This document shows positions 12,652 through 32,298 of a stretch of 38,789 nt of DNA, piece by piece. The DNA lies in the NCBI GenBank assembly GCA_003132325.1, contig PKXK01000232.1, forward strand, positions 1-38,789, read 5' to 3'. The notes beneath the pieces are model-generated. The model was not told where the DNA came from. It ran no database searches and was given only the letters and a program-made list of their open reading frames with translations. The DNA is from Acidobacteriaceae bacterium (GTDB taxonomy: Bacteria > Acidobacteriota > Terriglobia > Terriglobales > Acidobacteriaceae). How positions within the stretch are numbered: the stretch's first letter is position 1; each line of letters opens with the position of its first letter. A program made the translations under genes and the position numbers.

Positions 12652-15600
12652 TTACCAAATTATCTTCACCCCGAACTGGATCTCGCGCGAGTCCGTCTGG
12701 GTTGTAGTGATCTGGCCGAAGCCGGGAACCGGATTCCCCGATGCGTCGATCGCCTCGAGATTAGAGATTGGAGGCGCGAAGTTAACATGGTTCAAGATGT
12801 TAAAGAACTCGGCCCGGAACTGGATATTGAAGTTCTCTGACACTCTTTTGATGTGGTCGTTCTTAACCAAGGAGAAATCGACATTGACCAAGCCTGGCCC
12901 AATAATCGAGTTACGACCCAAATTGCCGAGGAGGTTAATACAGGTCGGGTAAGGGAATTTGTGATCGCAGCCGAACGGTGGCGCCGCATTGTAAAATGCG
13001 AGGCTGGGCGCAACGGCATTGATAAGGCAATTCGCCTTGAGGTATTGGACACTTCCGGGGTTGGTCATGCTGCTGCAAACGCGGTCCGGAATAGCCAATG
13101 GCTCCGAGTTGAGTTGACCCATCGGATCTCCCTCGATGCCATCCAGGGGCCAGATGGGAACACCGTCCTGCAACTCAATGACTGATCCTACTTCCCATCC
13201 TCCAGCTATCCATCCCTTGAGCCCCGAGAGCGACGGTGCGGGGACCTGCCACAGGCCGTTAAGAACTAGGTTGCGTCTTAGATCGAAGTCCGCCGGCCCT
13301 TTAGTGATACGGGGATCCCACCAAGGGATCGTGGGGGTCACATCCCCCGCGTAGTTGTCTCCCGCAAAGCTGCCGGAGGAAGTGTCCAAGGCCTTGCCCC
13401 AGGTAAACGAGGCCTCCCACTGAAGGCCATGTCTCATTCGCTGCTCCCACCGCACTTCGAGAGAGTCGTACCAGGACTGGCTTGTCCAAACGACCCCCCC
13501 CCCTAACTCGCCGACATTGGCGTTTATGAGTTGCCCAGGGACAATGCTGGTCGCGCTCGGGTTTATCACGCCGCTGCCGACGGGGTTAGGAAACAACCAG
13601 CCCGCGGAAGTCTTGAAGGGAAAAACCGTGTTGAACTCGTCGGTCTGGAAGGGGTTGTGGAACGCCCTCGCTCCTGCATAGGCCAGCGTTACCGTGTTAC
13701 TTGAGGCGACTTGCCTCTGGATATTCAAGTTGTATTGCAGGATGTAATTGCGCTTCGGGTTCGGTTCGACATACTGCCATGCTTTGCTCGAACTCGGCGG
13801 GATGCAGGTCGGGCATCCCAGAAACAGGTTAGCCAGGCCGTGTGGGAATGACCCTTGCGGAGGATTGGTCAGAATAATGGTGGGTGTGAATGGAGAGGTT
13901 TGCGCGTTATTGAGCGCTAGCTCGTACGGGAGGGGAAGAGCGTCAAAGATTCCGAAACCACCGCGAACGGCAGTTTTGCCACTGCGAAATGGATCCCAGG
14001 AAAAACCGATCCGCGGCTCGAAGTTCTTGGTGGTCGGGTTTGACTGAAAGTAAGACTTGTAAAAACCCGGACAGTTAGCATTGCCGTGGCTGTCAAGCTG
14101 GCAATTGCCCGGATTAGTAAAGAGGGTCTCCATGACTTGAATCTTTCCATCAGTCTCGGTCGGAATCGTCGACATTTCATAGCGCAACCCTAAGTTAATG
14201 GTCAGCCCGGGGCGCTTCTGCCAATCGTCCTGGATATACCCGGCGATAATCGAGGCGCGGTTATGGTGTGGCGAGATCCCGGTGACGAACGGTGGGACGC
14301 CAGGACTCTGCGCCTTAAACGGTATGTCCTGCAGAAAGTCTGCCAGTGTGCTAAAGGAGACGGTGCCATTCGCGAAATTCCAAAAGAAAACGTCTTCATG
14401 ATCTCTAAGGAACATGGCGCCGAACTTCAGGTTGTGGGTCCCCACAATGTAGGAGGCATCGTCGTACACCTGAAAGGTCTCCCCAGTGAAGTTCTCGTTC
14501 CCCTGGGTGTTGAAGGTTGGTAGCGAGCTGACCCCCCCCACTCCTCCGCCCGAGTTTACGGAAGCGATTTGCGGCTCGAATGACGACGGTAATATCCCAA
14601 AGGAGTGGTCTAGCCAAGCCGGGACAATCGCCGCTACATCTGCGTTATTCACAGTCGAGAGGCTATATCCCAGTCGAACGTTATTAATCATTCTGTTGCT
14701 GACGACGTGGCTCTCTTCTAGGGAAGCGCCCTGCCGATACGTTCCAAAACCTTTCAATTGAGTGTTCAAAGCATCGGGCTTGCTGTAACTCGAGCGGTCG
14801 TAATACCAAAAGGAATTCAGGCCGTCTTTGCCCGAGAACTTTACATCGCCCCTCGCCGTGACGAAGTTGTCGATCACCTTTTGCTGACCCGCAACGACGT
14901 ACGTGCCCGTATTGTTTGACGGGCCGATTAGGCCAGCATTGGGCAAGGGATAGAAGGCGGTTAGCACATTCTGGACGTTAGGGTCCACTGTAATCGGGGG
15001 TAGCGGATTGCCGTTCGCGTCGTTAAGCAGTCCGAGCCGCGCATTGGGCGAGGGAGTAAACGCGGTTTGGGTGACCCCCTTGTTTTGACGAAGTCCTTCG
15101 TAGTCACCAAAAATGAAGATCTTCTCCTTCTTGATGGGCCCTCCTGCCGAGCCGCCGAACTGGTTGCGTTTAAAAGGCGGCTTCTGGACGTGATTGTAAT
15201 CGTCGAAGAAATTTGGCGCGTCCAGAGCGCTGTTACGCAGGAACTCATATGCATTTCCATGAAACTGATTGGTGCCGGAGCGCGTGATGGCGTTGATGAC
15301 TCCCCCGGAGGTATAGCCGTACTCGGACGAGTAGTTGCTGGTCAAAACCGAGAATTCCTGAATCGCGTCCACACCCAGGTTTGCGCCGAGTACGTTTCCT
15401 GGACCCGCGTTCGAGTAGTCGTTGACGATGATGCCGTTTATCCGGTAGACGTTTTGCGAAGGGCGTTGTCCGTCGATCGACATCTGCATTCCCAGCCCGC
15501 GAGCATGACCCCCAGGGTTGCTAACCGTATCCTGGGTCTTCACCTGGACGACACCGGGTTGGAGCAAGGCCAAAGATGCCCAGTCGCGGCCATTAAGAGG

Positions 15601-16071
15601 CAATTCCTTAATCGTCGCGGATTCCACCGTGTTGTCGAGACTCGAGGTGCCAAGTTCAATCGCTGGGGCTTCGCCAGTGATTTCGAGCTTTTCGGTAACT
15701 TTCCCCACGCGCATGGCAATATTCAGCACTTGCACAGCTCCAACTGTGAGCGTTAGCCCTGACTGCACTGCCGTCTGAAACCCTACCGCCGTGACGCTAA
15801 TTTCATAGGTCGCCGGCCGCAGGTTGCTCACTGTGTAGATGCCATCCGGATTTGTCGTGGTGGTCACGGTTACTCCGGTCGCGGAATCTCTAGTTGTGAT
15901 TTGCGCATTAGGGATGAATGCGCCCGAAGGGTCCGTAATTCTCCCGGTGAACGTCCCGCCGGTCACCTGCGAATAGATCGGAAGGGACATCAACATGCCG
16001 AAAGTTAGCGTTACCAGTACCAGTTGTAGGAGCCTCGCGGAGATTTTGTGTGAACCCCTCTGGTGGCTCAT
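12652..16071 (-). CDS. Oar-like TonB-dependent outer-membrane receptor with carboxypeptidase-regulatory domain
   Basis: ORF 12652..16170, preferred ATG at 16071 with AAAGGA SD and signal peptide; GTFTGRITDPSGAFIPNAQITTRDSATGVTVTTTTNPDGIYTVSNLRPATYEISV; plug and C-terminal beta-barrel, RAEFFNILNHVNF. Confidence 0.93.
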   Translation of the reverse strand: MSHQRGSHKISARLLQLVLVTLTFGMLMSLPIYSQVTGGTFTGRITDPSGAFIPNAQITTRDSATGVTVTTTTNPDGIYTVSNLRPATYEISVTAVGFQTAVQSGLTLTVGAVQVLNIAMRVGKVTEKLEITGEAPAIELGTSSLDNTVESATIKELPLNGRDWASLALLQPGVVQVKTQDTVSNPGGHARGLGMQMSIDGQRPSQNVYRINGIIVNDYSNAGPGNVLGANLGVDAIQEFSVLTSNYSSEYGYTSGGVINAITRSGTNQFHGNAYEFLRNSALDAPNFFDDYNHVQKPPFKRNQFGGSAGGPIKKEKIFIFGDYEGLRQNKGVTQTAFTPSPNARLGLLNDANGNPLPPITVDPNVQNVLTAFYPLPNAGLIGPSNNTGTYVVAGQQKVIDNFVTARGDVKFSGKDGLNSFWYYDRSSYSKPDALNTQLKGFGTYRQGASLEESHVVSNRMINNVRLGYSLSTVNNADVAAIVPAWLDHSFGILPSSFEPQIASVNSGGGVGGVSSLPTFNTQGNENFTGETFQVYDDASYIVGTHNLKFGAMFLRDHEDVFFWNFANGTVSFSTLADFLQDIPFKAQSPGVPPFVTGISPHHNRASIIAGYIQDDWQKRPGLTINLGLRYEMSTIPTETDGKIQVMETLFTNPGNCQLDSHGNANCPGFYKSYFQSNPTTKNFEPRIGFSWDPFRSGKTAVRGGFGIFDALPLPYELALNNAQTSPFTPTIILTNPPQGSFPHGLANLFLGCPTCIPPSSSKAWQYVEPNPKRNYILQYNLNIQRQVASSNTVTLAYAGARAFHNPFQTDEFNTVFPFKTSAGWLFPNPVGSGVINPSATSIVPGQLINANVGELGGGVVWTSQSWYDSLEVRWEQRMRHGLQWEASFTWGKALDTSSGSFAGDNYAGDVTPTIPWWDPRITKGPADFDLRRNLVLNGLWQVPAPSLSGLKGWIAGGWEVGSVIELQDGVPIWPLDGIEGDPMGQLNSEPLAIPDRVCSSMTNPGSVQYLKANCLINAVAPSLAFYNAAPPFGCDHKFPYPTCINLLGNLGRNSIIGPGLVNVDFSLVKNDHIKRVSENFNIQFRAEFFNILNHVNFAPPISNLEAIDASGNPVPGFGQITTTQTDSREIQFGVKIIW
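13494..13503. repeat. Homopolymer C10 (G10 on coding strand) inside the receptor gene
   Basis: cgaccccccccccta read directly. Confidence 0.9.
14532..14539. repeat. Homopolymer C8 (G8 on coding strand) inside the receptor gene
   Basis: gacccccccca read directly. Confidence 0.9.
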
Positions 16072-16228
16072 GGGCGATGTCCTTTCCGGGATATGAGCGC
16101 AACTACGTGAGAGGGCGCAATAATTCTGTGTTTTCATTAGAGAAACTCCTGTTCCCACTATTCGAACCACTTTTACTCTGGCGATTGGTCGATGTCAAGA
16201 AGAAAAGTGCCGATGTCTCAGCTCCATA

Positions 16229-17461
16229 ATTCTGTCATCCCTTAATGGCAACGTGAAAATGTCACCCCATGAACCGGGAGACATTTGCATTGAGCCAGAA
16301 GGAGCTGCAACGGGTGGCAGTGATTTCCAGATGCGTGAATGGGGAGTTGGCGTGTGTCAAAGCCGCCGCACTCCTTTCCTTAAGCGTCCGCCAGGTTAAG
16401 CGCTTGAAAAAGCGTATGCGCGAAGACGGGGAGGCGGCTTTGGCGCACGCTAATCGCGGGCGACCCAGCCACCGCCGCCTGCCTAACGCCGTGCGCGAGC
16501 GCATCGTGCAGCTGGCACGCAGCACCTACGCCGGCTTCAACGATCACCACCTCTGCGAGAAACTTATCGAGCGCGAGGGCTTCTCGCTCAATCGCGAAAC
16601 CCTTCGCCGGCTGCTGCGTATGCAAGGTCTCGGCTCGCCTAGAAAACGCCGTGCTCCCGTTCATCGCCAGCGCTGTGTGCGTTCCGCGCAACTCGGCGAA
16701 CTCGTGCAACTCGATGGTAGTCCGCACGACTGGCTCGAAGGACGCGGCCCCGGCTCACCGCTCTCGGTATGCAAGACGACGCCACCGGTAAAATCCTGGC
16801 GGCGCAGTTCTTTCCCTCGGAAACGGCATCCGGCTATCTCTGCTTGCTCCGCCAACTCCTGCGTCGCCACGGCGTGTCCCTCGCTTTTTACGGCGATCAC
16901 AGCGGCATCTTCGTCCGCAACGACGACTCCTGGACGGTCGAAGAACAGCTCGCGGAAAAACGCCATCCCACGCAGTTCGGCCGCGCCCTGGAACAGCTGG
17001 GCATCACCTTTATCGCCGCCCACAGTCTGCAAGCCAAAGGCCGCGTCGAGCGTCTCTGGGGTGTGCTGCAGGATCGCCTCACCAGCGAACTGCGGCTCGC
17101 CAAAGCTGCCGACATCGACTCCGCCAACGCCGTGCTCCGCAAGTTCATCGCCGACTACAACCGTCGCTTCTCCCGGCGGCCTCGCAAATACCAAACCGCC
17201 TGGCGCGCGGCTCCGGAAAATCTTGAGCGCATCTGTTGCTTCGTGTACGAGCGCGTGGTCAGCAACGACAACATCGTGCAGTGCAAGGGCCGCCGCTTCC
17301 AGATCCCCAGCAGGCTCGTCGCTTCAGCTTTGCCGGTGCCAAAGTGCATATCGACCAAGCTCTCGATGGGCGGGTCTCGCTCTACTACCGCGACACCCGC
17401 TTGGGAACACTTTACAGTCTCAGGGGGTGACAGTTTTATGTTGCTGTTAGGGCGACAGAAT
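16229..17461 (+). mobile_element. ISNCY-type insertion sequence, degenerate
   Basis: Ends ATTCTGTCATCCCTTAATGGCAACGTGAAAATGTCACCCC (left) and ATTCTGTCGCCCTAACAGCAACATAAAACTGTCACCCC (right, reverse complement); transposase inside. Confidence 0.8.
16269..17430 (+). pseudogene. ISNCY-family transposase with two frameshifts
   Basis: SQKELQRVAVISRCVNGELACVKAAALLSLSVRQVKRLKKRMREDGEAALAHANRGRPS then GMQDDATGKILAAQFFPSETASGY in another frame, then QARRFSFAGAKVHIDQALDGRVSLYYRDTRLGTLYSLRG in a third frame; shifts at C runs 16748-16751 and 17305-17308. Confidence 0.88.
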
Positions 17462-17580
17462 CACGTTGCTACAACGATGTGCCATCTTCTGCTTGACAAA
17501 ATGCGCAGTCAGACATACAAAAAAGGAGAACTGCACTTTCAATACAGAAAGAGCAGATCTCTGAAGTACAGGAACAATTT

Positions 17581-18681
17581 ATGGAGAGTGCTCCGGGGAT
17601 TGGGATCATCGGGGGTGGAATTTGGGCGGCTCATCATATCAATGCGATTCGCGATTTAGAGCGGCAAGGGATGGCACGACTAATTGCGGTGTGTGCTCGA
17701 ACCCAAGAGACAGTCTCGCGCCTGTGCGAGCAGTATCGCATCGTGGGGAACACCGACTATCGGGACCTTCTTGCTCGACAAGACATTGATGCGGTATGTA
17801 TCGTCACCCCCGATCATCTGCACAGAGAGATGACAGTTGCTGCGGCAAGAGCAGGCAAACACATCCTCGTGGAGAAGCCAATGGACCTCAGTTTAAAAGG
17901 CTGCGATGAAATGTTGGAAGCAGCGAGGGAAAACCGAGTGATGCTGTTTGTCGATTTTCACAAGCGCTACGATCCGGTACAACAGAAGGTCCGAGATCTA
18001 ATCTGCGAGAGACGCGTGGGCACGATTCAATACGGATACGCCTACATGGAAGCCAAGATCATCGTTCCTCGGGACTGGTTGTCGAAGTGGGCGGCGCATA
18101 CGACACCATTCTGGTTCCTCGGCAGTCACCAGGTCGATCTCCTTCGGTGGACCCTCAAGTCGGAAGTTCGAAGTGTGTTGGCTCATAGCTTCCGAGGGAA
18201 GCTTGAGGGTCTCGGGATCGACACTCCGGATGCAGTAAAGGCCGAACTTAAGTTTGAAAATGGCACAGTGGTGACTGTCGATGTCTCGTGGGTTCTTCCA
18301 GACGGATTCGAAGCGGTTGTGAACCAGGGACTGCGCTTAGTTGGGACAGAGGGCCTTATCGAAATTGACACTCAGGATCGAGGAGCTGCGGGCTGTTTCA
18401 GCGGAGGAACGATGGAGACCTATAACACGAATGCGGCTAACGTGACGATCAACGCTCTGGGCCAGTCGACGTATTCAGGCTATTTCATCGATCCCATAAA
18501 AGAGTTTTTGCACCTTGTCGGCTACCTGAAGGACGGAGGCGATCTGGAATCCATCAAAGGTAAGTATCCTTCCGGGGAAGATGGTAGAGAGGCCACGAGG
18601 GTCGCGGTAGCCGTACACCAGAGCATTGCAAAAGGGATACCCATTGCTGTGAAACAAAATGGCTGTGGTCCCGATGTCTAG
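17581..18681 (+). CDS. Gfo/Idh/MocA family oxidoreductase
   Basis: 366 aa; GIIGGGIWAAHHINAI nucleotide-binding motif, HILVEKPMDLSLKGCDEML. Confidence 0.92.
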   Translation: MESAPGIGIIGGGIWAAHHINAIRDLERQGMARLIAVCARTQETVSRLCEQYRIVGNTDYRDLLARQDIDAVCIVTPDHLHREMTVAAARAGKHILVEKPMDLSLKGCDEMLEAARENRVMLFVDFHKRYDPVQQKVRDLICERRVGTIQYGYAYMEAKIIVPRDWLSKWAAHTTPFWFLGSHQVDLLRWTLKSEVRSVLAHSFRGKLEGLGIDTPDAVKAELKFENGTVVTVDVSWVLPDGFEAVVNQGLRLVGTEGLIEIDTQDRGAAGCFSGGTMETYNTNAANVTINALGQSTYSGYFIDPIKEFLHLVGYLKDGGDLESIKGKYPSGEDGREATRVAVAVHQSIAKGIPIAVKQNGCGPDV

Positions 18682-19975
18682 CTCAAACCGCATGGCCGTA
18701 GTATTACGGGGCATTCAGAGTGGCCAGCTGCGCTGGGGCGTTCTGATGATGCTCTTTATGGTGACGGTCATCAACTATCTCGACCGGCAGTCACTGTCGG
18801 TATTAGCGCCGGTCATCATTTCGGATCTGCGTCTTAGCGCAGAACAGTATTCGCACGTGATATTGGCATTCATGATCGGCAATGCTGTGATTCAGCTGCC
18901 CTTCGGTCCTTTCCTTGATCGTGTCGGTGTACGGCTTGGACTGGGGCTTTCAGTGATGGTGTGGTCATTAGGAGCTGGTCTCCATGCGCTGGCGGCTAGT
19001 GCGCTGAGTCTGGCATGCTTTCGTTTCATCTTGGGGCTCGGAGAAGGCGGCAATTGGCCGGCGAGCACCAAGGCGGTGGCAGAGTGGTTCCCCTCAGAAG
19101 AGCGCGGCTTCGCAATGGGGTTCTTCAACGGAGGCACAGCAATCGGCGCGATCATGGCGCCCCCCGTCGTCGCGTTTATGGCGACCAAGCTTGGTTGGCG
19201 TTACGCATTTCTGTTGACGCCACTTATCAGCATGCTCTGGCTTATCATTTGGTTCCGAACCTATCATTCGCCTCAAGATCATCCGAAGCTATGCTCGGAA
19301 GAACGCGAACTTCTAATTAATACAACTGTTGCTGGCAGTGCTGCGACTCACAAGAAATCGAAGTCCGCACTTCTCACAAGTACGCGGTTCTGGGGGATAT
19401 TTGCTGCGCGTTTCATTACTACTCCGGTTTGGTGGTTTGTTGCTTATTGGCTGCCGCTGTACTTGAAACAGCAGTATGGATTCACCCTTGTCAAGATTGG
19501 TGCTTTTGCGTGGATCCCATTTCTTGCAGCAGATATCGGAAATATGGTAGGGGGCGCATTGTCTGGGCGACTGATTGGAAAGGGACAGAAGCCGGTGAAA
19601 GCCCGCCTCATTGTGCTGGGGGTCAGTTCGGTGGTTATGATTGCTAGCGTCCCCGCTGTCTACGCAAGATCGGCATGGCTATCTATTGCGCTTATTAGTA
19701 TTGTCACATTCGCGTACGGGTCCTGGGCGGCAAACATTCTTGCGCTCGCCGCCGACCAGTTTGAAGGGCATGAAGTTGGGACAGTCGTGAGTTGGAGCGG
19801 AACGGGAGCCGTATTAGGGGGCGCAATCTTCACATTTTTTGTCGGCAAGGTAGCCGATGTTGCATATCTGCCGGTTTTCGTGGCCGCTGGAGTAATGCCT
19901 ATCGTGGGCTTTGGTTTGACGGCGTTGCTGAATTGGAAGAGATCAGAAGTCATTTCAGCCGGAATCGCGGGGTAA
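18659..19975 (+). CDS. MFS transporter (sugar-acid/hexuronate-like ACS type)
   Basis: 438 aa, VTVINYLDRQSLSVLAPVI, GLGEGGNWPASTKAVAEWFPSEERGFAMGFFNGGTAIGAI; 12 TM-like. Confidence 0.92.
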   Translation: MAVVPMSSSNRMAVVLRGIQSGQLRWGVLMMLFMVTVINYLDRQSLSVLAPVIISDLRLSAEQYSHVILAFMIGNAVIQLPFGPFLDRVGVRLGLGLSVMVWSLGAGLHALAASALSLACFRFILGLGEGGNWPASTKAVAEWFPSEERGFAMGFFNGGTAIGAIMAPPVVAFMATKLGWRYAFLLTPLISMLWLIIWFRTYHSPQDHPKLCSEERELLINTTVAGSAATHKKSKSALLTSTRFWGIFAARFITTPVWWFVAYWLPLYLKQQYGFTLVKIGAFAWIPFLAADIGNMVGGALSGRLIGKGQKPVKARLIVLGVSSVVMIASVPAVYARSAWLSIALISIVTFAYGSWAANILALAADQFEGHEVGTVVSWSGTGAVLGGAIFTFFVGKVADVAYLPVFVAAGVMPIVGFGLTALLNWKRSEVISAGIAG

Positions 19976-20063
19976 CGCCGCCGCAGAGATGCGGCGCGAA
20001 ATCATGAACGTTGAAGTGACAGAGCATGGTGCTCTTATTTGCAAACAGTGAAAGGATGGCGGG

Positions 20064-20804
20064 ATGAAACTTCCAGAAATGTCACGTAGCAAGGAAATGA
20101 GCCTGACTGAGGACCGGGAGATTCCTTGCCCGTACACGATCGAGGTCTCCGAATTGGTGGAACGGTACGAAAATCTTTACGCGGCCGCCGTCGTCGACAT
20201 CTTCCAAGAAAAGGGGCTCCACAACCAATGGCTGGGACCGGAGATCAAGTGTTTAACCCGTGACCTCAAACGGGAATCGGTTGCGGGCGTGGCCTTCACG
20301 GTTCAATGGATCAGCGATCCTGAGGCCGATGAAAGAGAAAAGCCAGCCGCAAGGATGGTGGCTTCCTATCCAAGGAACAGTATTGTTTTGGTGGATACGG
20401 GTGCCGACCAGGTCGCGGGATTCTGGGGCGAGCTTGCAACCACAATCTGCCTGCGCAATGGGGTTCGTGGCGCGGTCATTAACGGCGGTGCTAAAGACCT
20501 CGGATTTGTTCGCGAAATGAATTTCCCAATTTTCGCGAAGTTTTCAAGCCCAATAGACGGCTTTGCCTATTCCCGTTTACGGGGCTGGCAATTGCCGATA
20601 TGGTTGGGGACCGTTCTGGTCAAGCCGTGGGACATTATCATTGCTGACGCCGATGGTGTGTTGGTGGTGCCGCAGAGCATCACCGAAGAGGTCCTCATCA
20701 GGACCGAGGCACGACGGGACAGTGAAAACAACACTCGGTCCCTGCTGAAGAAAGGAGTTTCTGCCCTTCGTGCGTCAATGATGACTGGGCGAAAGGATCT
20801 CTAA
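20064..20804 (+). CDS. RraA-like family protein (HMG/CHA aldolase-like)
   Basis: 246 aa; GFWGELATTICLRNGVRGAVINGGAKDLGFVREMNFPIFAKFSSP, IIIADADGVLVVPQ. Confidence 0.88.
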   Translation: MKLPEMSRSKEMSLTEDREIPCPYTIEVSELVERYENLYAAAVVDIFQEKGLHNQWLGPEIKCLTRDLKRESVAGVAFTVQWISDPEADEREKPAARMVASYPRNSIVLVDTGADQVAGFWGELATTICLRNGVRGAVINGGAKDLGFVREMNFPIFAKFSSPIDGFAYSRLRGWQLPIWLGTVLVKPWDIIIADADGVLVVPQSITEEVLIRTEARRDSENNTRSLLKKGVSALRASMMTGRKDL

Positions 20805-20985
20805 CAAACTGTGCGGTGTGGTTGATGTTTATAACTCGCCAGACAACTTGAACTCACTCGATATATATAACACGAGAAGAATCATCATTATCCGCGGGAG
20901 CTCATCCTCAGCCTCTCAGTTGAGGGGCTCTGTGGGGTGACATGCGCTTCCACAAGATCGAGGGAAAGGGGCGTTATCCTCAACG

Positions 20986-21816
20986 ATGAAGCCAACGAAG
21001 AGTAACAAGAGCGCAACATCCCCAGTCTTGGCGTCGGATAAGAAGAACATCATTCCGATGCTGGCCAAGAGCTTTCAAATATTGGAACGCTTTCGAGAAA
21101 ATCCGGATGGCGTGACTTATAGCGAACTGACCACACTCTGCCCCAACTTCTCCAGAGTATCCATATTCAGGGTGCTGTGTTCGCTGGAGCGATTTGGTTA
21201 CCTAGAAAAACTCCCCGACAATAATCGCTATGTTTTGGGCGCCAAACTCGTGGAATTCGGGCGCATCGCAGAGTCACGTCTGGAGCTATTGCAAGTTGCC
21301 AGCCCACATTTGCAAAAGTTGCTCAAGAAATACAACGAGAGCATCAGTCTTTGTACGGTCAAGAATCGTGAGCTCGTCTATTTCACTACGTTGGAGAGCA
21401 GTCACCCGTTGCGTGTTGGACGCCCCGACCGGAGGGCTGCGGTTTACTGTTCGGCGGTTGGGAAGGCTATCTTGGCTCACCTACCAAAAGGCAATATCGA
21501 TCGTTATCTCGAAACGACGACTCTTGTCGGCTTAACGCCAAACACCATCACCACCAAAACCGAGTTGCGACGCGAATTGCAGCAAATCAATTCACGGGCC
21601 TACGCTGTAGATAATGAGGAGAACCTGGTGGGAGTGGTATGCGTCGGAGTCGCCATTCTTAACGTCGACAAAATACCGGTAGCGGGCATCAGCATGAGTG
21701 GACCTTCGGTTCGCATGCCTCCAGAGCGTATTGTCCTTGCAGCAGCCGATTTGAAGAGCGCAGCAAAAGCAATCTCCGACAGGTACCCGCTCCTGGGCAA
21801 GATCGCGATAGTGTGA
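20986..21816 (+). CDS. IclR family transcriptional regulator
   Basis: 276 aa; N-terminal wHTH SFQILERFRENPDGVTYSELTTLC, C-terminal YCSAVGKAILAHLP. Confidence 0.92.
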   Translation: MKPTKSNKSATSPVLASDKKNIIPMLAKSFQILERFRENPDGVTYSELTTLCPNFSRVSIFRVLCSLERFGYLEKLPDNNRYVLGAKLVEFGRIAESRLELLQVASPHLQKLLKKYNESISLCTVKNRELVYFTTLESSHPLRVGRPDRRAAVYCSAVGKAILAHLPKGNIDRYLETTTLVGLTPNTITTKTELRRELQQINSRAYAVDNEENLVGVVCVGVAILNVDKIPVAGISMSGPSVRMPPERIVLAAADLKSAAKAISDRYPLLGKIAIV

Positions 21817-21887
21817 AGCTGCTGACTGAGCGGTCGTCCGGCCCGTCTGATTCACAGCCTTCACAGTGTTGCCTTCACACTTTTGTC

Positions 21888-21915
21888 TTGACACCGACCC
21901 AGCCCGGCATAGAAA
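21888..21915 (+). promoter_or_regulatory. Candidate sigma70-like promoter (TTGACA-16 bp-TAGAAA) upstream of the 22084 gene
   Basis: TTGACA 21888-21893, TAGAAA 21910-21915; repeated TTCACA boxes just upstream. Confidence 0.4.
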
Positions 21916-22083
21916 ATGTGCATTGTGGAACTCGTGTTTCTCTAATGAAATTTGGGAAGTCGTATTCCTGGAGCTAGGTAGCGATTCTCAATGTAAAAAG
22001 GCAGGTTGGCTGTAGAAGACGATTTCATCCGGTGAGATCGTGTGAAAGAGTGTAGAAGGCTAATGGCGCAATAAGGTAAACCA

Positions 22084-23082
22084 ATGAAGGTGGTGGTCAC
22101 GGATTACATTGAGCCCGATCTCGACTGGGAAGCGAAATGCATGCGCGAAATGGACATTGCCTTCCAAGCCTGCCAGCTAAAGTTTGCGGGAGAGAAGCAG
22201 TTGCTCGACGCGACTTGGGACGCAGACATCGTAGTGGTGAATATGGCGCCGATCACGGCAGGCTTGGTGGAGCAATGGCAGCGCTGCTCTCTCGTGATTC
22301 GTCACGGCGTTGGATACGACAATGTGGATGTGTCGGCGTTGACCCGGCGGGGTATTCGGTTCGCAAACATCCCCGATTATTGCGTAGAAGAGGTTGCCGA
22401 ACACACTATCTCACTTATCTTTGCATTAGCCCGAAAAATTCTGCCGAGCCGCACAATATTGGAGCGATCGAGTCGGCAAGGCCGCTGGGAATTCAGCGAG
22501 GTCGAGCCCATCTATCGGATGAAGGGCCAGACCTTGGGCATTATCGGCGTTGGACGAATTGGAGCGCGCATTCTGGAAAAGCTGCGGAGCTTTGGGTTTA
22601 GCTTCTTATTGTGCGACCCCTATCTCAGCAGTGCGCGGCAGGATGCGGTCGGGATCGAGTTGGTATCTCATGAAGAGGTTTACCGCAAGTCCGATTTCAT
22701 TGCCCTCCATACGCCACTCAATGCGGAGACCCGGCACCTTATCAACGAGCGGACCTTAGCGCTCATGAAGCCGTCGGCCTTTCTTATTAATACCGCGAGA
22801 GCTGGCTTGATCGACCATGTCGCGTTGTATCGAGCCTTGAAAGACGGTCGCCTTGCGGGTGCGGCCATTGACGTTTTCGACCCAGAGCCCCCCCGCAACG
22901 ACAACCCTTTGTTTGAACTGCAAAATGTGGTTCTGACGCCGCATCTCGCCTGGTATTCGGTCGAAGCAGGATTAGAAATCCGCCACAAGATTGTTCAGCA
23001 GATTCAACGGTTCAAGGAAGGCCTGCCGCCGCTCAATTGGGTCAATGAAAGAAAATTACAGTTCCAGGGGGTGGAATCATGA
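22084..23082 (+). CDS. D-isomer-specific 2-hydroxyacid dehydrogenase (CtBP-type)
   Basis: 332 aa; IGVGRIGARILEKLRSFG, LINTARAGLIDHVALYRALKDGRLAGAAIDVF, LTPHLAWYS. Confidence 0.92.
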   Translation: MKVVVTDYIEPDLDWEAKCMREMDIAFQACQLKFAGEKQLLDATWDADIVVVNMAPITAGLVEQWQRCSLVIRHGVGYDNVDVSALTRRGIRFANIPDYCVEEVAEHTISLIFALARKILPSRTILERSSRQGRWEFSEVEPIYRMKGQTLGIIGVGRIGARILEKLRSFGFSFLLCDPYLSSARQDAVGIELVSHEEVYRKSDFIALHTPLNAETRHLINERTLALMKPSAFLINTARAGLIDHVALYRALKDGRLAGAAIDVFDPEPPRNDNPLFELQNVVLTPHLAWYSVEAGLEIRHKIVQQIQRFKEGLPPLNWVNERKLQFQGVES

Positions 23083-24398
23083 CGGGCGGCCTTGTCAATG
23101 TGAGATACGAATTGCCGGGACCTCGTTCCAAACAACTGTTTGAAAGGTGGAGCCACGTAGAAGCGCAGTGTGCGGGTTATCAGGCGAAGGTTGTGTGGGA
23201 GAAGGCGCTTGGGGTCATGGTCACAGATGTCGATGGGAATACATTCCTGGATTGGACGTCAGGTGTGCTGGTGACGAACGTGGGGCATTGCCATCCGGAC
23301 CTGGTGAAGGCTATCCAGAGAGCCTGCGAAAAGTTGTTGAACAACTATGAATGCCTCACGGAGGCCCGCGTCGAAGCGGCCGAGAAACTGATTTCAGTAC
23401 TGCCGGCTCATTTGGACAAATGCTTTTTCTTTAGCACTGGTTCCGAGGCAACCGAAGCTGCGCTACGAGTTATGAAGCGCAAGTCGGGAAAATTTGAAAT
23501 TATCAGCTTCTATGGCGCTTTTCATGGGCGGACCTATGCCGCCTTGAGTGCGGGTGGCCTCCCTGGTCCCAAAAAGGGATACGGACCGACCGTACCTGGC
23601 TCGATCCGAGTTCCATATCCTAATTGCTATCGGTGCCCTTTGCGCGCAAAGCCCGAGACCTGTGACTTCCTATGTCTCGACTATTTGGATGATGCGGTTC
23701 GGGCCAATAGCACTGGCAGTCTAGCTGGTGTCATCGTCGAACCCTATCAGGGGGCCGCTGGATTTATCTTCCCGCCAGAGGGCTGGCTGTCGCGACTCGA
23801 AGAATGGATTCGCTCTCACAACCTTCTTTTCACGTTGGACGAGGTGCAATCGTCATTCGGGCGTACCGGGAAGTTTTTCGCCATGGAGTGGGAAGGACTG
23901 ACACCGGACGTCGTGTGCATTGGCAAAGGTATCGGCAGTGGTGTTCCAGCTTCCGCAATTGCGGCTCGCGGCGAAGTGCTGGCCGTCCTCAAGAGCGGAG
24001 ACATGAGCAGCACGATGGGAGGCAATCCCGTAGCCTCAGAGGCTGTGGTCGCGGTCGTAGATATCATGCGCCGTGAAAGACTCGAGGAAAATGCCCTGCG
24101 CATCGGACGGATCATGAAAGATCGGTTGAGGGAGATGATGGGAAAGAGCTCGCACATAGGGGACGTTCGGGGCATGGGACTCGTGATGGGAGTCGAACTG
24201 GTAAAAGACAAAACGACAAAGGAGCCTGCTCCCGAACTGGCGAAGAAACTGATCGATCTCGCAGCACAGCACGGGTTGCTGATAGGTGCGGTCGGCACGT
24301 TCGGCAACGTTATCCGCGTAGCGCCTCCACTGGTCATTTCCGAAGAGCAAGCTGAGGAGAGCCTCGATATCTTCGAGCGAGCCCTGGATCAGCTGTAG
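23079..24398 (+). CDS. Class III PLP-dependent aminotransferase-fold enzyme with Cys-rich insert
   Basis: 439 aa; FFFSTGSEATEAALR, LFTLDEVQSSFGRTGKFFAME, CIGKGIGSGVPASAI (PLP lysine); YPNCYRCPLRAKPETCDFLC. Confidence 0.93.
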   Translation: MTGGLVNVRYELPGPRSKQLFERWSHVEAQCAGYQAKVVWEKALGVMVTDVDGNTFLDWTSGVLVTNVGHCHPDLVKAIQRACEKLLNNYECLTEARVEAAEKLISVLPAHLDKCFFFSTGSEATEAALRVMKRKSGKFEIISFYGAFHGRTYAALSAGGLPGPKKGYGPTVPGSIRVPYPNCYRCPLRAKPETCDFLCLDYLDDAVRANSTGSLAGVIVEPYQGAAGFIFPPEGWLSRLEEWIRSHNLLFTLDEVQSSFGRTGKFFAMEWEGLTPDVVCIGKGIGSGVPASAIAARGEVLAVLKSGDMSSTMGGNPVASEAVVAVVDIMRRERLEENALRIGRIMKDRLREMMGKSSHIGDVRGMGLVMGVELVKDKTTKEPAPELAKKLIDLAAQHGLLIGAVGTFGNVIRVAPPLVISEEQAEESLDIFERALDQL

Positions 24399-24421
24399 AA
24401 CCATGCCAAGGAGAATACGCA

Positions 24422-25657
24422 TTGATCTCTGACATCCAAGCGGCGGTCCAAAGCGTCCGCGACGAGGCGACGCAGTTTCTGTGTGAATTGATCAGATATC
24501 CATCTCTGCCCGGTGAAGAAGCTGGAGTGATGAGGCACGCCAGCTTGCGTTTTGCCGAATTAGGGTCGGTCGAATACGTGTCGCTTTCCAATGAGCTTCG
24601 GCAGGACGCGGACTATTCAAATCCGATACCTGACATCGAATATGAAGGGCGTTACAACCTCCGAGTGCGACTCCCAGGTGCAGGGAAGGGCCGAGCGCTA
24701 CTTTTGAACACCCATTTGGATGTGGTACCAGCCTCGGAAGGTCAGGATCGCCCCTTCGACCCGGCTGTGCGAGATGGGATAGTTTGTGGCCGAGGGGCAT
24801 GCGATGCGAAGGGACAGGCAGCAACAATTTTTGCAGCGCTTTCCGCCATTGCCCGTCTCGGGTATGCATTCCGAGGCGACATCATAGTGCATCTGGTCAA
24901 CGAGGAAGAGATTGGCGGTAACGGCACTATGGCGATGGTCCGCCGGGGGGAGGTCGCGGATGGTTGCATCGTCATGGAACCGACAGACCTGAAGATCGGA
25001 TGCTCCGTGCGCGGGGCAGTGTGGTTCCGGGTCATCTGCACCGGAAAGCCTGGCCATAGCGGACAGGCTCGGGGACCTATCAGTGCACTGAAGATGGCCA
25101 CCCGCGTCATTGAAATTCTTGAGCAGTATCAAGCCCGCCTGCTGGAGTCTTCCCGAGGAATTGCGTTCTTCGACGATCATCCTAATCCCATGCCAATCAC
25201 GTTCGGCAAATTGAATGCGGGCAACTGGCCTGCGACCGCTCCAGCACATGCTGTAATCGAAGGCGTGCTGGGTTTTCTTCCAAATAAGACACGTTTTCAG
25301 GTAATGCAGGAGATGCGGGAAGCGATTCACGAGGCGGGAGATCCCTGGTTGAAGGAAAACTTCACACTGGAGTTTATGTATCGCCATGACGCCCATGCTC
25401 TTGCCCCAACTCATCCCCTCGTTTCAGAGCTGCAGGTGGCTTGTAGGGAAGCCGGCAGCGAGGGTGAAGTGGGGGCGATAACCGCATCGTCCGATTCTTG
25501 GTACTACGCAAACCAATTGCAGATACCCGCCCTGGTGTTTGGCCCGGGAAGTTTGAGCGTTGCCCATTCCAATCATGAGCAAATCCGCATGGACGAAGTC
25601 TGCCGGGCTGCCGTGACTCTTGTGCGGTTTTGTGAGAGTTGGTGTGGAAAAGCTTAG
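24422..25657 (+). CDS. M20 family metallo-hydrolase (ArgE/DapE/deacylase-like)
   Basis: 411 aa, TTG start; LLLNTHLDVVP, CGRGACDAKGQ, VNEEEIGGNG, VMEPTDLKIG, VAHSNHEQI. Confidence 0.92.
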   Translation: MISDIQAAVQSVRDEATQFLCELIRYPSLPGEEAGVMRHASLRFAELGSVEYVSLSNELRQDADYSNPIPDIEYEGRYNLRVRLPGAGKGRALLLNTHLDVVPASEGQDRPFDPAVRDGIVCGRGACDAKGQAATIFAALSAIARLGYAFRGDIIVHLVNEEEIGGNGTMAMVRRGEVADGCIVMEPTDLKIGCSVRGAVWFRVICTGKPGHSGQARGPISALKMATRVIEILEQYQARLLESSRGIAFFDDHPNPMPITFGKLNAGNWPATAPAHAVIEGVLGFLPNKTRFQVMQEMREAIHEAGDPWLKENFTLEFMYRHDAHALAPTHPLVSELQVACREAGSEGEVGAITASSDSWYYANQLQIPALVFGPGSLSVAHSNHEQIRMDEVCRAAVTLVRFCESWCGKA

Positions 25658-25698
25658 GGCTGCAATTCAACACCATCAGGGTTGCACGTGAGGTTCTC

Positions 25699-26733
25699 AT
25701 GCAGGCATTAGTAAAAACACAGAAGGGTGTCGGATTTGTGGAGCTGCAAGACCGGCCGGTACCATCTCCCAGCAAGGGCGAGGTGCTCATCGAAGTCAAA
25801 GCCTGCGGAATTTGCGGTACTGATCTCCACATCTTTCACGATCAGTTTCCTTATTGGCCACCTGTGATTCTGGGCCACGAGTTTTCGGGAGAGATTGTCG
25901 AGGTAGGACGTGACGTTAAGGGCTTCAAGGTAGGCACTCGCGTCGTCGGGGAACCGCACACCGAGGCATGTGGAACCTGCTATCTTTGCCGAACCGGAAA
26001 TATCCAAATCTGCCCCATGAAGCGATCTCCAGGATGGGGGATTGACGGAGCTCTTGCGAGATATCTGTGCATGCCTGAAATCCTGTTGCACAGAATTCCT
26101 GACAACCTTTCCTTTGATGACGCGGCATTAGTCGAGCCCACGGCCAATACAGTCCATGATGTCATTGAGCGCGCCGGTATTCAGGCTGGAGACTTCGTAG
26201 TTGTCCTTGGCCCTGGTCCCATTGGCCTTTTGGCTGCGCTGACAGCCCGAGCGGCTGGCGCCTGGCACGTTCTCGTTGTCGGCGCTCCAGGAGACGAGGC
26301 TATTCGGCTAAGGAAGGCGCGTGAACTCGGGTTTCAGACTGTTAACCTTGGAAACGCCAATCCCAGGGATGTGGTAAGCGAAATGACCAGTGGACGAGGA
26401 GCTGACCTCGTGGTGGAGTGCAGCGGTGCTCCTACCGCTATTGCCTCTACCGTTGATCTGGTCCGCAAGAAAGGGAAGATCTGTGCGATCGGCCTGACCG
26501 GAAACGAGAATGTGCAGTTCCCTTGGAACCAAGCCGCCTTCAAGGTCTGCGACATCGTTTTTAACCTTTCCACCAGCTACACAAGCTGGGACCGCACCAT
26601 CAATCTTATTGCCGGAGGACTGATCCCTGTTCGCGAACTGATATCACACCGCCTGCCATTGAAATCTTGGAAGCACGCATTCCAAGAGTTGGAAGCACAG
26701 CGGGCACTAAAGATATTGCTCATTCCAGAGTGA
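25699..26733 (+). CDS. Zinc-dependent alcohol/sorbitol-type dehydrogenase
   Basis: ORF 25639..26733, likely ATG 25699 (MQALVKTQKGVGFVEL); CGICGTDLHIF, GHEFSGEIVEVG, CGTCYLCRTGNIQICP. Confidence 0.92.
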   Translation: MQALVKTQKGVGFVELQDRPVPSPSKGEVLIEVKACGICGTDLHIFHDQFPYWPPVILGHEFSGEIVEVGRDVKGFKVGTRVVGEPHTEACGTCYLCRTGNIQICPMKRSPGWGIDGALARYLCMPEILLHRIPDNLSFDDAALVEPTANTVHDVIERAGIQAGDFVVVLGPGPIGLLAALTARAAGAWHVLVVGAPGDEAIRLRKARELGFQTVNLGNANPRDVVSEMTSGRGADLVVECSGAPTAIASTVDLVRKKGKICAIGLTGNENVQFPWNQAAFKVCDIVFNLSTSYTSWDRTINLIAGGLIPVRELISHRLPLKSWKHAFQELEAQRALKILLIPE

Positions 26734-26750
26734 GAGAAGAGGAGGTAGCG

Positions 26751-27428
26751 GTGTCCGACTTTGATCGAGTGACCGTTCTCTCGACCATGCTTGACAGCGG
26801 GCTCGTACCAGTGTTCTACAGCCCCGAGATTGAGATCGCGAAGAACGTTGCGAAAGCATGTTTCGAGGGAGGGGCGCGGCTATTAGAATTCACTAACCGC
26901 GGTGATGGTGCACAGGATGTATTTCGCGAACTCCAGTCTTATCGCAAAAAGGTCCTTCGTCACCTAATTTTGGGGGCGGGGTCAATAGTGGATGCTCCAA
27001 CTGCACAGGCGTATATTGCACTCGGTGCGAGTTTTGTTGTTGGTCCCATCCTCAATCCAGATGTGGCACGGCTGTGCAACCGCCGTCGGGTCGCGTACCT
27101 TCCAGGATGCGGTAGCGCCTCTGAAATCTCGTGTGCCGAAGAGCTAGGTTGCGACATCGTCAAAATCTTCCCCGGCATGCAGGTAGGTGGACCACCCTTT
27201 GTTAAGGCGATGGCTGGGCCATGTCCGTGGACTCGGCTAATGCCGACGGGAGGAGTGAGCCCCAACGAAGAGTCGCTATCGGCTTGGTTCCAAGCTGGAG
27301 TCGCTTGTGTTGGCATCGGCTCTGAACTTATCACGAAAGATATTTTGCAGTCCGGTGACTATGCGCGGCTGACTCATGACGTGCGGTCCACGGTTGAACT
27401 CATCGCGAAGATAAGGCATAGAGCTTAG
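26751..27428 (+). CDS. eda: KDPG/KHG aldolase family protein
   Basis: ORF 26667..27428, likely GTG 26751 after gaggag SD; LLEFTNRG, DIVKIFPG (Schiff-base Lys), RLMPTGGVSPNEESLSAWFQAG. Confidence 0.88.
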   Translation: MSDFDRVTVLSTMLDSGLVPVFYSPEIEIAKNVAKACFEGGARLLEFTNRGDGAQDVFRELQSYRKKVLRHLILGAGSIVDAPTAQAYIALGASFVVGPILNPDVARLCNRRRVAYLPGCGSASEISCAEELGCDIVKIFPGMQVGGPPFVKAMAGPCPWTRLMPTGGVSPNEESLSAWFQAGVACVGIGSELITKDILQSGDYARLTHDVRSTVELIAKIRHRA

Positions 27429-27440
27429 AGAGCAGGGGCG

Positions 27441-28535
27441 ATGTCGATTCTGAATATAAGGTCTGAATGTTTGTGGGATCTAGTTTCGCTTGGCGAAGTG
27501 ATGTTACGACTAGATCCTGGGTTTGAACGGATCCGCACAACGCGCCATTTTCAGGTTTGGGAGGGAGGAGGAGAATACAACGTTGCGCGTGCTTTACGAC
27601 GGTGCTTCGGCAAACGCACGGCTGTACTCACGGCCAGTGTGGATAATGAAGTGGGACATCTCCTAGAAGATCTCATGTTGCAGGGCGGCGTAGATTTGCG
27701 ATACGTCAAATGGTTTCCGTTTGACGGCATCGGTAAGGCCGCGCGCGTGGGCCTGAACTTCACTGAAAAAGGCTACGGGATACGGCCGGCTTTAGGGTGC
27801 TCTGATCGCGGCCACTCTGCTGCTTCGCAACTGAAGCCTGGAGATTTCGACCTCGATGAGCTTTTTGAAAAAGAGGGCGTGCGCTGGCTACACTCTGGCG
27901 GAATCTTTGCTGCACTTTCCCCTTCCACCGCGGCGCTAACCATGGAAGTGATGGGAGTTGCCCGTGCGAACGGCACTATTGTGTCCTATGACTTGAATTT
28001 TCGCCCATCACTCTGGAAATCACATGGCGGTATTGAGCGGGCAATGGGACTGAACCGTGAGATTGCCAAATACGTAGACGTAATGATCGGGAACGAAGAA
28101 GATTTCACCGCTGGCCTCGGATTACAGGTGGCGGGAATCGACGAAAACCTGACGGATTTGAGCCCCGAAAGCTTTCAGCGCATGATGCACGAAGCCATTG
28201 CACAATTTCCTAATTTCAAGGTGGTAGCTACTACTTTGCGAAATGCCCGCACCGCTTGTGTCAATGATTGGAGCGCAATCTTGTATGCCGACGGAAGCTT
28301 CTATCAAGCCATGGTTCGCGGTGGTTTAGAGATTTATGATCGAGTGGGCGGGGGAGACGGGTTCGCCTCCGGCATGATTTACGCGTTGTTGCAAGACATG
28401 TCTCCACAAGATGCCGTCGACTACGGTGCCGCTCATGGTGCGCTGGCTATGACCACACCAGGTGATACCTCGATGTCCACTCTGAAGGAAGTCGAAGCCG
28501 CAGTCAAATCCAGCAGTGCAAGGGTAATCCGTTAA
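27441..28535 (+). CDS. kdgK: PfkB family sugar kinase, 2-keto-3-deoxygluconate kinase-like
   Basis: 364 aa; LGEVMLRLDPG, GGGEYNVARALRRCFG, VSYDLNFRPSLW, DRVGGGDGFASGMIYALL. Confidence 0.88.
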   Translation: MSILNIRSECLWDLVSLGEVMLRLDPGFERIRTTRHFQVWEGGGEYNVARALRRCFGKRTAVLTASVDNEVGHLLEDLMLQGGVDLRYVKWFPFDGIGKAARVGLNFTEKGYGIRPALGCSDRGHSAASQLKPGDFDLDELFEKEGVRWLHSGGIFAALSPSTAALTMEVMGVARANGTIVSYDLNFRPSLWKSHGGIERAMGLNREIAKYVDVMIGNEEDFTAGLGLQVAGIDENLTDLSPESFQRMMHEAIAQFPNFKVVATTLRNARTACVNDWSAILYADGSFYQAMVRGGLEIYDRVGGGDGFASGMIYALLQDMSPQDAVDYGAAHGALAMTTPGDTSMSTLKEVEAAVKSSSARVIR

Positions 28536-31233: not shown

Positions 31234-32298
31234 TTACTCGGTGTTCAACTGCACACCATCGCCTGTTCCGGGTTGTCCCGCGTGCGAACTGAACTTCGTC
31301 ATCTGTTGATAGTCCCATCCCTTGCGCCACATCCAGTACAGACGAACGGCGAGTCTGCGGGCCATCGCGACCTTGGCGATCTTCCGCCCTCGCCGCATCG
31401 CCAGGTGAAAATACTTACTGCGCCACTCCGGATCGCTGCGCACTGTGACCTGGGCCGCTTCCACCAGCAGGAAGCGCAACAGAGAGCTGCCTTGTTTCGT
31501 GATGTGTCCCAGCCGTCGCCGCTCTCCGCTCGACTCCTCCGAAGGCACCAGTCCCAGATAGCTCGCGATCTGCTTGCCACACTGAAACCGCTCCGCTCTC
31601 CCGATGATCAACACGAAGGCCAACGCCGTCAGAGAACCGACCCCGGGATGCGTCCTCAACCGCTGCGCCTCGGGACACTTTTCCACTTCCTGCTCGATCG
31701 CTTGCGTCAGCTCCGCAATCGTGGGGCTCAGTCGGTCCAATAACTCCAGCAGATCGCGCCGACGCCGGCTCGCCCACGGTGCTAACTTGAACGAATCCAG
31801 TTGCTCGCGCCCGGCTTCCCGCCACAACTTTTTCTTGCAGCGCAGGCCTTCGTTCAGCGCCACCGCTTGCAACTGGTTCATGATCCGCGTCCGCGCCTGC
31901 ACCATCCGGTGACGGTGCCACAGCAACTGCCGCAGATCGCGATTCTCCCAGCTCGGTACCCAGACCCGCGGAAAGCGATCTTCCAGCAACAATCGCAGAA
32001 TCAGTTGCGCGTCCTGGCGATCCGTCTTCTGTTTGCGCACCCGCTTCGTGCGGATCTCGGCGGCGTCCCCAATCCACAACTCAAACCGCAGCTCCGAGAA
32101 CAGTCGTTCAAACCAGCGAGCGTGCCCACTCGCTTCCATCCCCAGACGCACGCTCACTCCTTGCGCCGCGAGATTGCGATAAAACTCTTCCGCTTCCTCG
32201 CGGTGCTCCAGTCGCCGCTCTTGCAGTTCCCCGGTTTCGGTATCCACAAACGCAATCTGTTGGAACCCCGGGTGGTAGTCACAACCTATAATCATCAT
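31234..32298 (-). CDS. IS110 family transposase
   Basis: 354 aa; GCDYHPG, LGMEASGHA, KTDRQDAQLILRLL (DEDD), C-terminal THPGVGSLTALAFVLIIG and ITKQGSSLLRFLLVEAA. Confidence 0.95.
   Translation of the reverse strand: MMIIGCDYHPGFQQIAFVDTETGELQERRLEHREEAEEFYRNLAAQGVSVRLGMEASGHARWFERLFSELRFELWIGDAAEIRTKRVRKQKTDRQDAQLILRLLLEDRFPRVWVPSWENRDLRQLLWHRHRMVQARTRIMNQLQAVALNEGLRCKKKLWREAGREQLDSFKLAPWASRRRRDLLELLDRLSPTIAELTQAIEQEVEKCPEAQRLRTHPGVGSLTALAFVLIIGRAERFQCGKQIASYLGLVPSEESSGERRRLGHITKQGSSLLRFLLVEAAQVTVRSDPEWRSKYFHLAMRRGRKIAKVAMARRLAVRLYWMWRKGWDYQQMTKFSSHAGQPGTGDGVQLNTE

Follow-up and report, generated by a model that had tools for sequence, protein, structure and literature searches.

Positions 17581-28535 of a 38,789-nt contig (PKXK01000232.1) from the draft genome of an Acidobacteriaceae bacterium (GCA_003132325.1; 5.3 Mb, 93.5% complete, 6.65% contamination) hold ten genes, all on the plus strand and with intact catalytic motifs. 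The whole contig stretch was analyzed and is referred to as the window. A 2-hydroxyacid dehydrogenase of the D-isomer type (2HADH), a class III pyridoxal 5'-phosphate (PLP) enzyme, an M20 N-deacylase, a zinc alcohol dehydrogenase (ADH), and a Gfo/Idh/MocA oxidoreductase form the conserved core of a module that recurs in several phyla. The core unit is real and conserved, and no matching pathway was found described in the open-access literature. Our leading, though tentative, reading is that the operon is catabolic. An anionic N-acyl compound, likeliest an N-acylated amino-sugar acid, would be deacylated and its nitrogen removed, and the carbon would reach central metabolism as an acid of the 2-keto-3-deoxygluconate (KDG) type.

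Relatives of the window PLP enzyme (~43-77% identity) were gathered by a genome-contig scan and genome searches, and their flanks were then mapped. The PLP clade was carried by 6 of 396 genomes of the window's phylum, 56 of 291 Armatimonadota genomes, 7 of 142 genomes in the class of genome G418, and 2 of 300 genomes in the phylum of a Firmicutes metagenome-assembled genome (MAG). The module is present in Acidobacteriota, Armatimonadota, a Chloroflexi MAG, and the Firmicutes MAG; a plasmid collection yielded distant relatives only (PLP enzyme <41% and M20 <34% identity). Near the module PLP genes, M20 was found in 32 of 53 loci, 2HADH in 26, ADH in 21, and Gfo/Idh (one of four clades) in 27. 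Among 72 loci with more distant class III PLP genes, drawn from the same scan, 2 had M20 and none had any of the other three. The Fisher p values (M20, 1.8e-13; 2HADH, 1.9e-12; ADH, 8.9e-10) are guides only, as the loci share kinship and many are cut by contig ends. In the PLP tree, a branch with full support (SH-aLRT 100) sets the 48 module sequences apart, with the window enzyme grouping with sequences from Solibacteraceae, Bryobacterales, and Armatimonadota. Group A loci have the gene order 2HADH-PLP-M20-ADH-(PIG-L)-Gfo/Idh, where PIG-L is a deacetylase family. Group B loci of Armatimonadota hold Gfo/Idh, PLP, and M20 in variable order, and their PLP-adjacent Gfo/Idh proteins are 41-48% identical to that of the window and of the same clade. 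The placement of 2HADH directly upstream of the PLP gene is highly conserved, and in the window the two open reading frames (ORFs) overlap. An earlier sequence-only reading had expected the genes to co-occur across genomes, which holds for the core; the KDG kinase (KdgK) and the aldolase for 2-keto-3-deoxy-6-phosphogluconate (KDPG) fall outside it.

The same reading had named ten co-oriented, motif-intact genes, and these were upheld by the ORF listing, Pfam/NCBIfam profile searches, and motif checks. The only NCBIfam cut-off passed was that of the KDPG/KHG aldolase (NF005499), and the remaining nine names are at the family level; the PLP enzyme, M20, ADH, 2HADH, Gfo/Idh, and kinase reached the cut-off of no characterized NCBIfam equivalog. 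The first gene encodes Gfo/Idh (17581..18681), followed by a major facilitator superfamily (MFS) permease of the anion:cation symporter type (18659..19975; nearest model TIGR00893, D-galactonate transporter, under cut-off), an RraA-like aldolase/decarboxylase family protein (20064..20804) in which Lys replaces the RD-motif Arg of other module RraA proteins, and an IclR-family regulator (20986..21816; nearest models BhcR and KdgR). The central genes are 2HADH (22084..23082; catalytic Arg, Glu, and His intact), the class III, fold-type I PLP enzyme (23079..24398; PF00202, 360 bits), the ArgE/DapE-like M20 deacylase (24422..25657; PF01546, metal ligands intact), and the ADH (25699..26733), which is nearest to threonine dehydrogenase (Tdh) and has its zinc ligands intact. 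For the ADH, an ATG start at 25699 with a Shine-Dalgarno-like sequence was preferred to a TTG at 25639. The last two genes encode the KDPG/KHG aldolase (26751..27428; KIFP motif intact), whose likelier start is the GTG at 26751 with GGAGG upstream, and a PfkB kinase resembling KdgK (27441..28535; GGGDGFASG intact), for which the nearest solved structure is KDG kinase 2afb (E 6.5e-49). The operon is tightly packed, with several adjacent genes overlapping or separated by short gaps. Scanning the window for Rfam families and tRNAs gave no matches.

The AlphaFold model of the PLP enzyme (mean pLDDT 91.8) matches gamma-aminobutyrate (GABA) transaminases, Ala/Ser racemase, and dialkylglycine decarboxylase at TM-scores of 0.90-0.94, and the best solved matches are ~35% identical. 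The PLP lysine (K283 in GKGI) is invariant, and the C-terminal R413 is nearly invariant in the clade. The acidic switch position, Glu in GABA transaminases (EP.QGE) and Asp in Ala/Ser racemase (EP.QGD), is Ala in the window (EPYQGAAG) and Ala, Ser, Thr, or Gly across the module clade. This residue change would speak against a transaminase of the Glu-switch (GABA aminotransferase) type, and an amino-acid racemase was set aside because the Asp is missing. A pyruvate-type transaminase or a lyase would then be left. The conserved 2HADH neighbor suggests a 2-keto acid as the product, and its adjacency mildly favors transamination followed by reduction.

N-acyl chemistry seems to recur across the module loci. 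In the M20 enzyme, the two-metal ligands and catalytic Glu (H98, D128, E161-E162, E186, and H382) do not vary among ten module relatives. Five loci have a PIG-L family deacetylase within the gene run, and locus L028 (15946-17508) encodes a xylose-isomerase-like TIM barrel fused to an AAC(3)-like acetyltransferase domain. Group A Gfo/Idh proteins have 3q2k and 3q2i as nearest solved structures (E 1.5e-47), both listed as oxidoreductase/dehydrogenase. We take these two structures to be WlbA, a dehydrogenase that acts on position 3 of an N-acetylated amino-sugar acid. The transporters near the module, MFS in the window, a sodium:solute symporter (SSS) in L103-L106, and a branched-chain amino acid type ATP-binding cassette (ABC) transporter in L139, would all be compatible with an anionic or amino-acid-like substrate.

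The link to KDG comes from the genes recruited around the core. Five loci have KdgK close to the PLP gene: the window, L025 (where it stands between M20 and ADH), L103, L104, and L188. In three of them, the window, L103, and L188, KDPG aldolase is close by as well. The window KdgK is 35-37% identical to those of the other module loci, the aldolase 34-37%, and RraA only 28% to that of L103, although the PLP enzymes of the window and these KdgK/aldolase loci are 51-72% identical. The low identities point to separate recruitment, with the KdgK, aldolase, and RraA roles apparently filled by separate lineages brought in at least twice. Such independent recruitment of KdgK and aldolase supports a 2-keto-3-deoxy sugar acid as what the module produces over at least some of its range, in keeping with the product proposed earlier from the window alone. 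In the class of G418, a close KdgK was found in 6 of 7 PLP-bearing genomes versus 43 of 135 others (Fisher p 0.007) and was adjacent to the PLP gene in three of those six. In L028, the gene run instead holds a fumarylacetoacetate hydrolase (FAH) family protein, nearest to the 2,4-didehydro-3-deoxy-L-rhamnonate hydrolase model but under its cut-off. KdgK and KDPG aldolase are a variable add-on outside the conserved core.

Two loci carry further metabolic genes. In L188 (2557-6430), KdgK, KDPG aldolase, and the module PLP gene share a gene run with an aldehyde ferredoxin oxidoreductase and with a DeoC/LacD-type aldolase that has ferredoxin domains. The module in L138 (1-19490) is accompanied by HMGL-like, phosphotransacetylase, transketolase-like, RhaT-like, and LacI genes, which hint at another end route.

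Under the preferred catabolic reading, the anionic N-acyl compound, our best guess being an N-acylated amino-sugar acid, would be imported. The Gfo/Idh and Tdh-like dehydrogenases would oxidize one or more of its hydroxyls, the M20 enzyme, whose family assignment is clear, would remove the acyl group, and the class III PLP enzyme would remove the nitrogen. The PLP step could be either a transamination, with the adjacent 2HADH then acting on the resulting 2-keto acid, or a direct elimination of ammonia. The carbon skeleton would end up as a 2-keto-3-deoxy sugar acid, either KDG itself or one of its stereoisomers. The KdgK-family kinase is predicted to phosphorylate this acid and the KDPG aldolase-family enzyme to cleave the product to pyruvate plus a triose phosphate. 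Taking the core module overall, we lean slightly toward transamination; the elimination originally put forward is thus just one of two options.

Several observations weigh against this catabolic scheme. Two or more dehydrogenases are assigned no step in it, and the scheme first proposed likewise gives no role to most dehydrogenases of the core. KdgK and aldolase are missing from the surroundings of most core loci, and KDG may therefore not be what the module makes in general; in the class of G418, moreover, many genomes have the KdgK-aldolase pair but not the module. In L103-L105, no 2HADH was seen close to the PLP gene, which suggests that 2HADH is not obligatory for the module. In L189 (1-7976), a 44% identical PLP relative lies beside PseG-, SpsF-, and NeuB/PseI-like genes, a PfkB kinase, and an ATP-grasp ligase; the first three are read as nonulosonate-biosynthesis genes, and some relatives may accordingly not be catabolic.

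How KDG would be formed depends in part on dehydratases. No IlvD/Edd, UxuA, UxaA, or enolase-superfamily gene is present in the window locus, and no dehydratase was found among the annotated neighbors in the conserved loci of relatives, where some neighboring ORFs are unannotated. The absence noted earlier from the sequence therefore stands for the locus and its conserved versions but not for the genome, which holds one IlvD/Edd-family gene on another contig and one MR_MLE_C match, with no UxuA and no UxaA-type second domain in the draft. A dehydratase may thus be encoded elsewhere in the window's genome. In G418 and G327 (94-95% complete, with module and KdgK), no IlvD/Edd, UxuA, or UxaA was found, and five and seven enolase-superfamily matches were found, respectively. 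The argument from the missing dehydratase holds at the level of the locus and stays unproven at that of the genome; as proof of a lyase it was rejected, since enolase-superfamily genes remain.

A possible but doubtful variant is that the PLP enzyme transaminates, 2HADH reduces the keto acid to an aldonate, and a dehydratase encoded away from the operon, either the one IlvD/Edd or the one MR_MLE protein of the window's genome, yields KDG. In its favor, 2HADH is near the PLP gene in nearly half of the module loci (26/53), its placement directly upstream is highly conserved, and class III transaminases number among the solved proteins closest to the PLP enzyme. The IlvD/Edd gene may, however, simply be a branched-chain amino acid enzyme, and no linked dehydratase was found in any module locus examined.

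Rather unlikely, in our view, is a lyase route in which M20 deacylates an N-acyl aldosaminate and KDG is formed directly by the PLP enzyme, working as an aldosaminate dehydratase/ammonia-lyase, as a non-homologous counterpart of the ong pathway discussed below. This would account for KdgK and aldolase without a dehydratase. G418 and G327 carry the module with KdgK but no IlvD/Edd, UxuA, or UxaA, and 2HADH was missing from the PLP neighborhood of L103-L105; the PLP clade has also lost the acidic residue of the GABA transaminases and Ala/Ser racemase, and the same logic is proven for OngB/OngC. In sequence and fold, however, the PLP enzyme is nearest to GABA transaminases, amino-acid racemases, and dialkylglycine decarboxylase rather than to known lyases, several enolase-superfamily genes of G418 and G327 could dehydrate aldonates, and 2HADH, ADH, and Gfo/Idh are left without a role. 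We consider it improbable that Acidobacteriota and Armatimonadota hold an independent second N-acyl aldosaminate pathway, with a class III fold-type I PLP enzyme as aldosaminate ammonia-lyase/dehydratase and an M20 enzyme as sugar-acid deacylase. To our knowledge, both activities would be new for these families.

It is also unlikely that the module acts on an N-acyl amino acid of the ordinary kind or has a partly biosynthetic role, with KdgK and aldolase belonging to a separate neighboring sugar-acid route. The M20, class III PLP, and Tdh-like ADH families comprise amino-acid enzymes, the ABC transporter of L139 is of the branched-chain amino acid type, and several core loci have a diaminopimelate epimerase and an aminotransferase nearby. 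Against this stand the Gfo/Idh gene alongside about half of the module PLP genes (27/53), the position of KdgK inside the L025 gene run, and the tight packing of the window genes. An ectoine-type pairing of deacylase and class III transaminase was set aside, with no ectoine hydrolase present. Very unlikely is an aminocyclitol substrate of the N-acyl inosamine type, deacylated by M20, converted to an inosose by the PLP enzyme, oxidized by Gfo/Idh and ADH, and ring-opened toward KDG in the manner of the Thermotoga inositol route: IolG is the best-scoring model for the window Gfo/Idh and IolM the third best for the ADH, and L028 has its xylose-isomerase-like fusion, but the Gfo/Idh scores are far under the cut-offs, the ADH is closer to threonine dehydrogenase than to IolM, and genes for a ring hydrolase or an epimerase are absent from the window.

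Transfer is the probable origin of the operon, because no close M20 copy was found in 60 sampled relatives of the window's genome (matches were paralogues of 31-34% identity), and because of the PLP tree position and the nearby insertion sequences. An ISNCY-type transposase in two overlapping frames (393 and 296 aa; 16269-17659), apparently frameshifted, ends just inside the first operon gene, and IS66 and IS110-type transposases (8988-10508 and 31234-32298) lie on either side of the operon. A composite transposon bounded by insertion sequences was rejected, as the window has no long direct repeats. Upstream on the opposite strand is a large Oar-like outer-membrane beta-barrel protein (PF25183, OMP_b-brl_4; 12652-16170), and a protein kinase with PD40 repeats is encoded on the same contig. 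This receptor and kinase fit Acidobacteriota, but the contig may be misbinned.

The PLP clade occurs in about a fifth of the sampled Armatimonadota and is scattered in Acidobacteriota, both mostly uncultured. The module would name a nitrogen- and carbon-containing substrate eaten by members of these phyla. The related loci offer a concrete set for assigning function to unnamed clades of class III PLP enzymes and M20 deacylases, which automated annotation labels 'aspartate aminotransferase family protein' and 'ArgE/DapE family deacylase'.

Known systems share parts of this design. The Thermotoga inositol route runs through IolG and IolM and then to KDG. The window resembles it in Gfo/Idh, zinc ADH, KdgK, and aldolase, but its ADH is nearer to Tdh, it has no ring hydrolase or epimerase, and it carries M20 and PLP genes. 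L-rhamnonate-type non-phosphorylative pathways for 2-keto-3-deoxy acids have a protein similar to the FAH protein of L028, whereas the window has a kinase and an aldolase instead. Compared with class III PLP enzymes at large, the module enzyme has the same fold (TM-score ~0.9), catalytic lysine, and C-terminal Arg but forms a separate clade, with Ala, Ser, Thr, or Gly for Glu/Asp in EP.QG[ED]. No other description of this gene cluster was found in the open-access literature, so the cluster itself may still be called undescribed, but its overall logic is known, with unrelated enzymes, from the ong pathway for oxidized chitin in Pseudoalteromonas (PMC9537276). There, N-acetylglucosaminate (GlcNAc1A) is converted by OngB, a D-aminoacylase-like amidohydrolase (PMC12017989), and OngC, a fold-type III PLP enzyme (PMC9537276), to KDG, on which KdgK then acts. 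Deacylation, PLP-dependent nitrogen removal, KDG, and KdgK would be common to both systems, as are the SSS transporter, found in L103-L106, and a KDPG aldolase gene, found in some ong genomes. The deacylase here is M20 (PF01546), with no amidohydrolase in the window locus, and the PLP enzyme is of PF00202 and fold type I rather than fold type III. The ong system has RidA, whereas the window locus has neither RidA nor a hexosaminidase but several dehydrogenases. Judged by its gene content, the window operon is not a member of the ong system; the two appear to share a logic that is carried out by different enzyme families.

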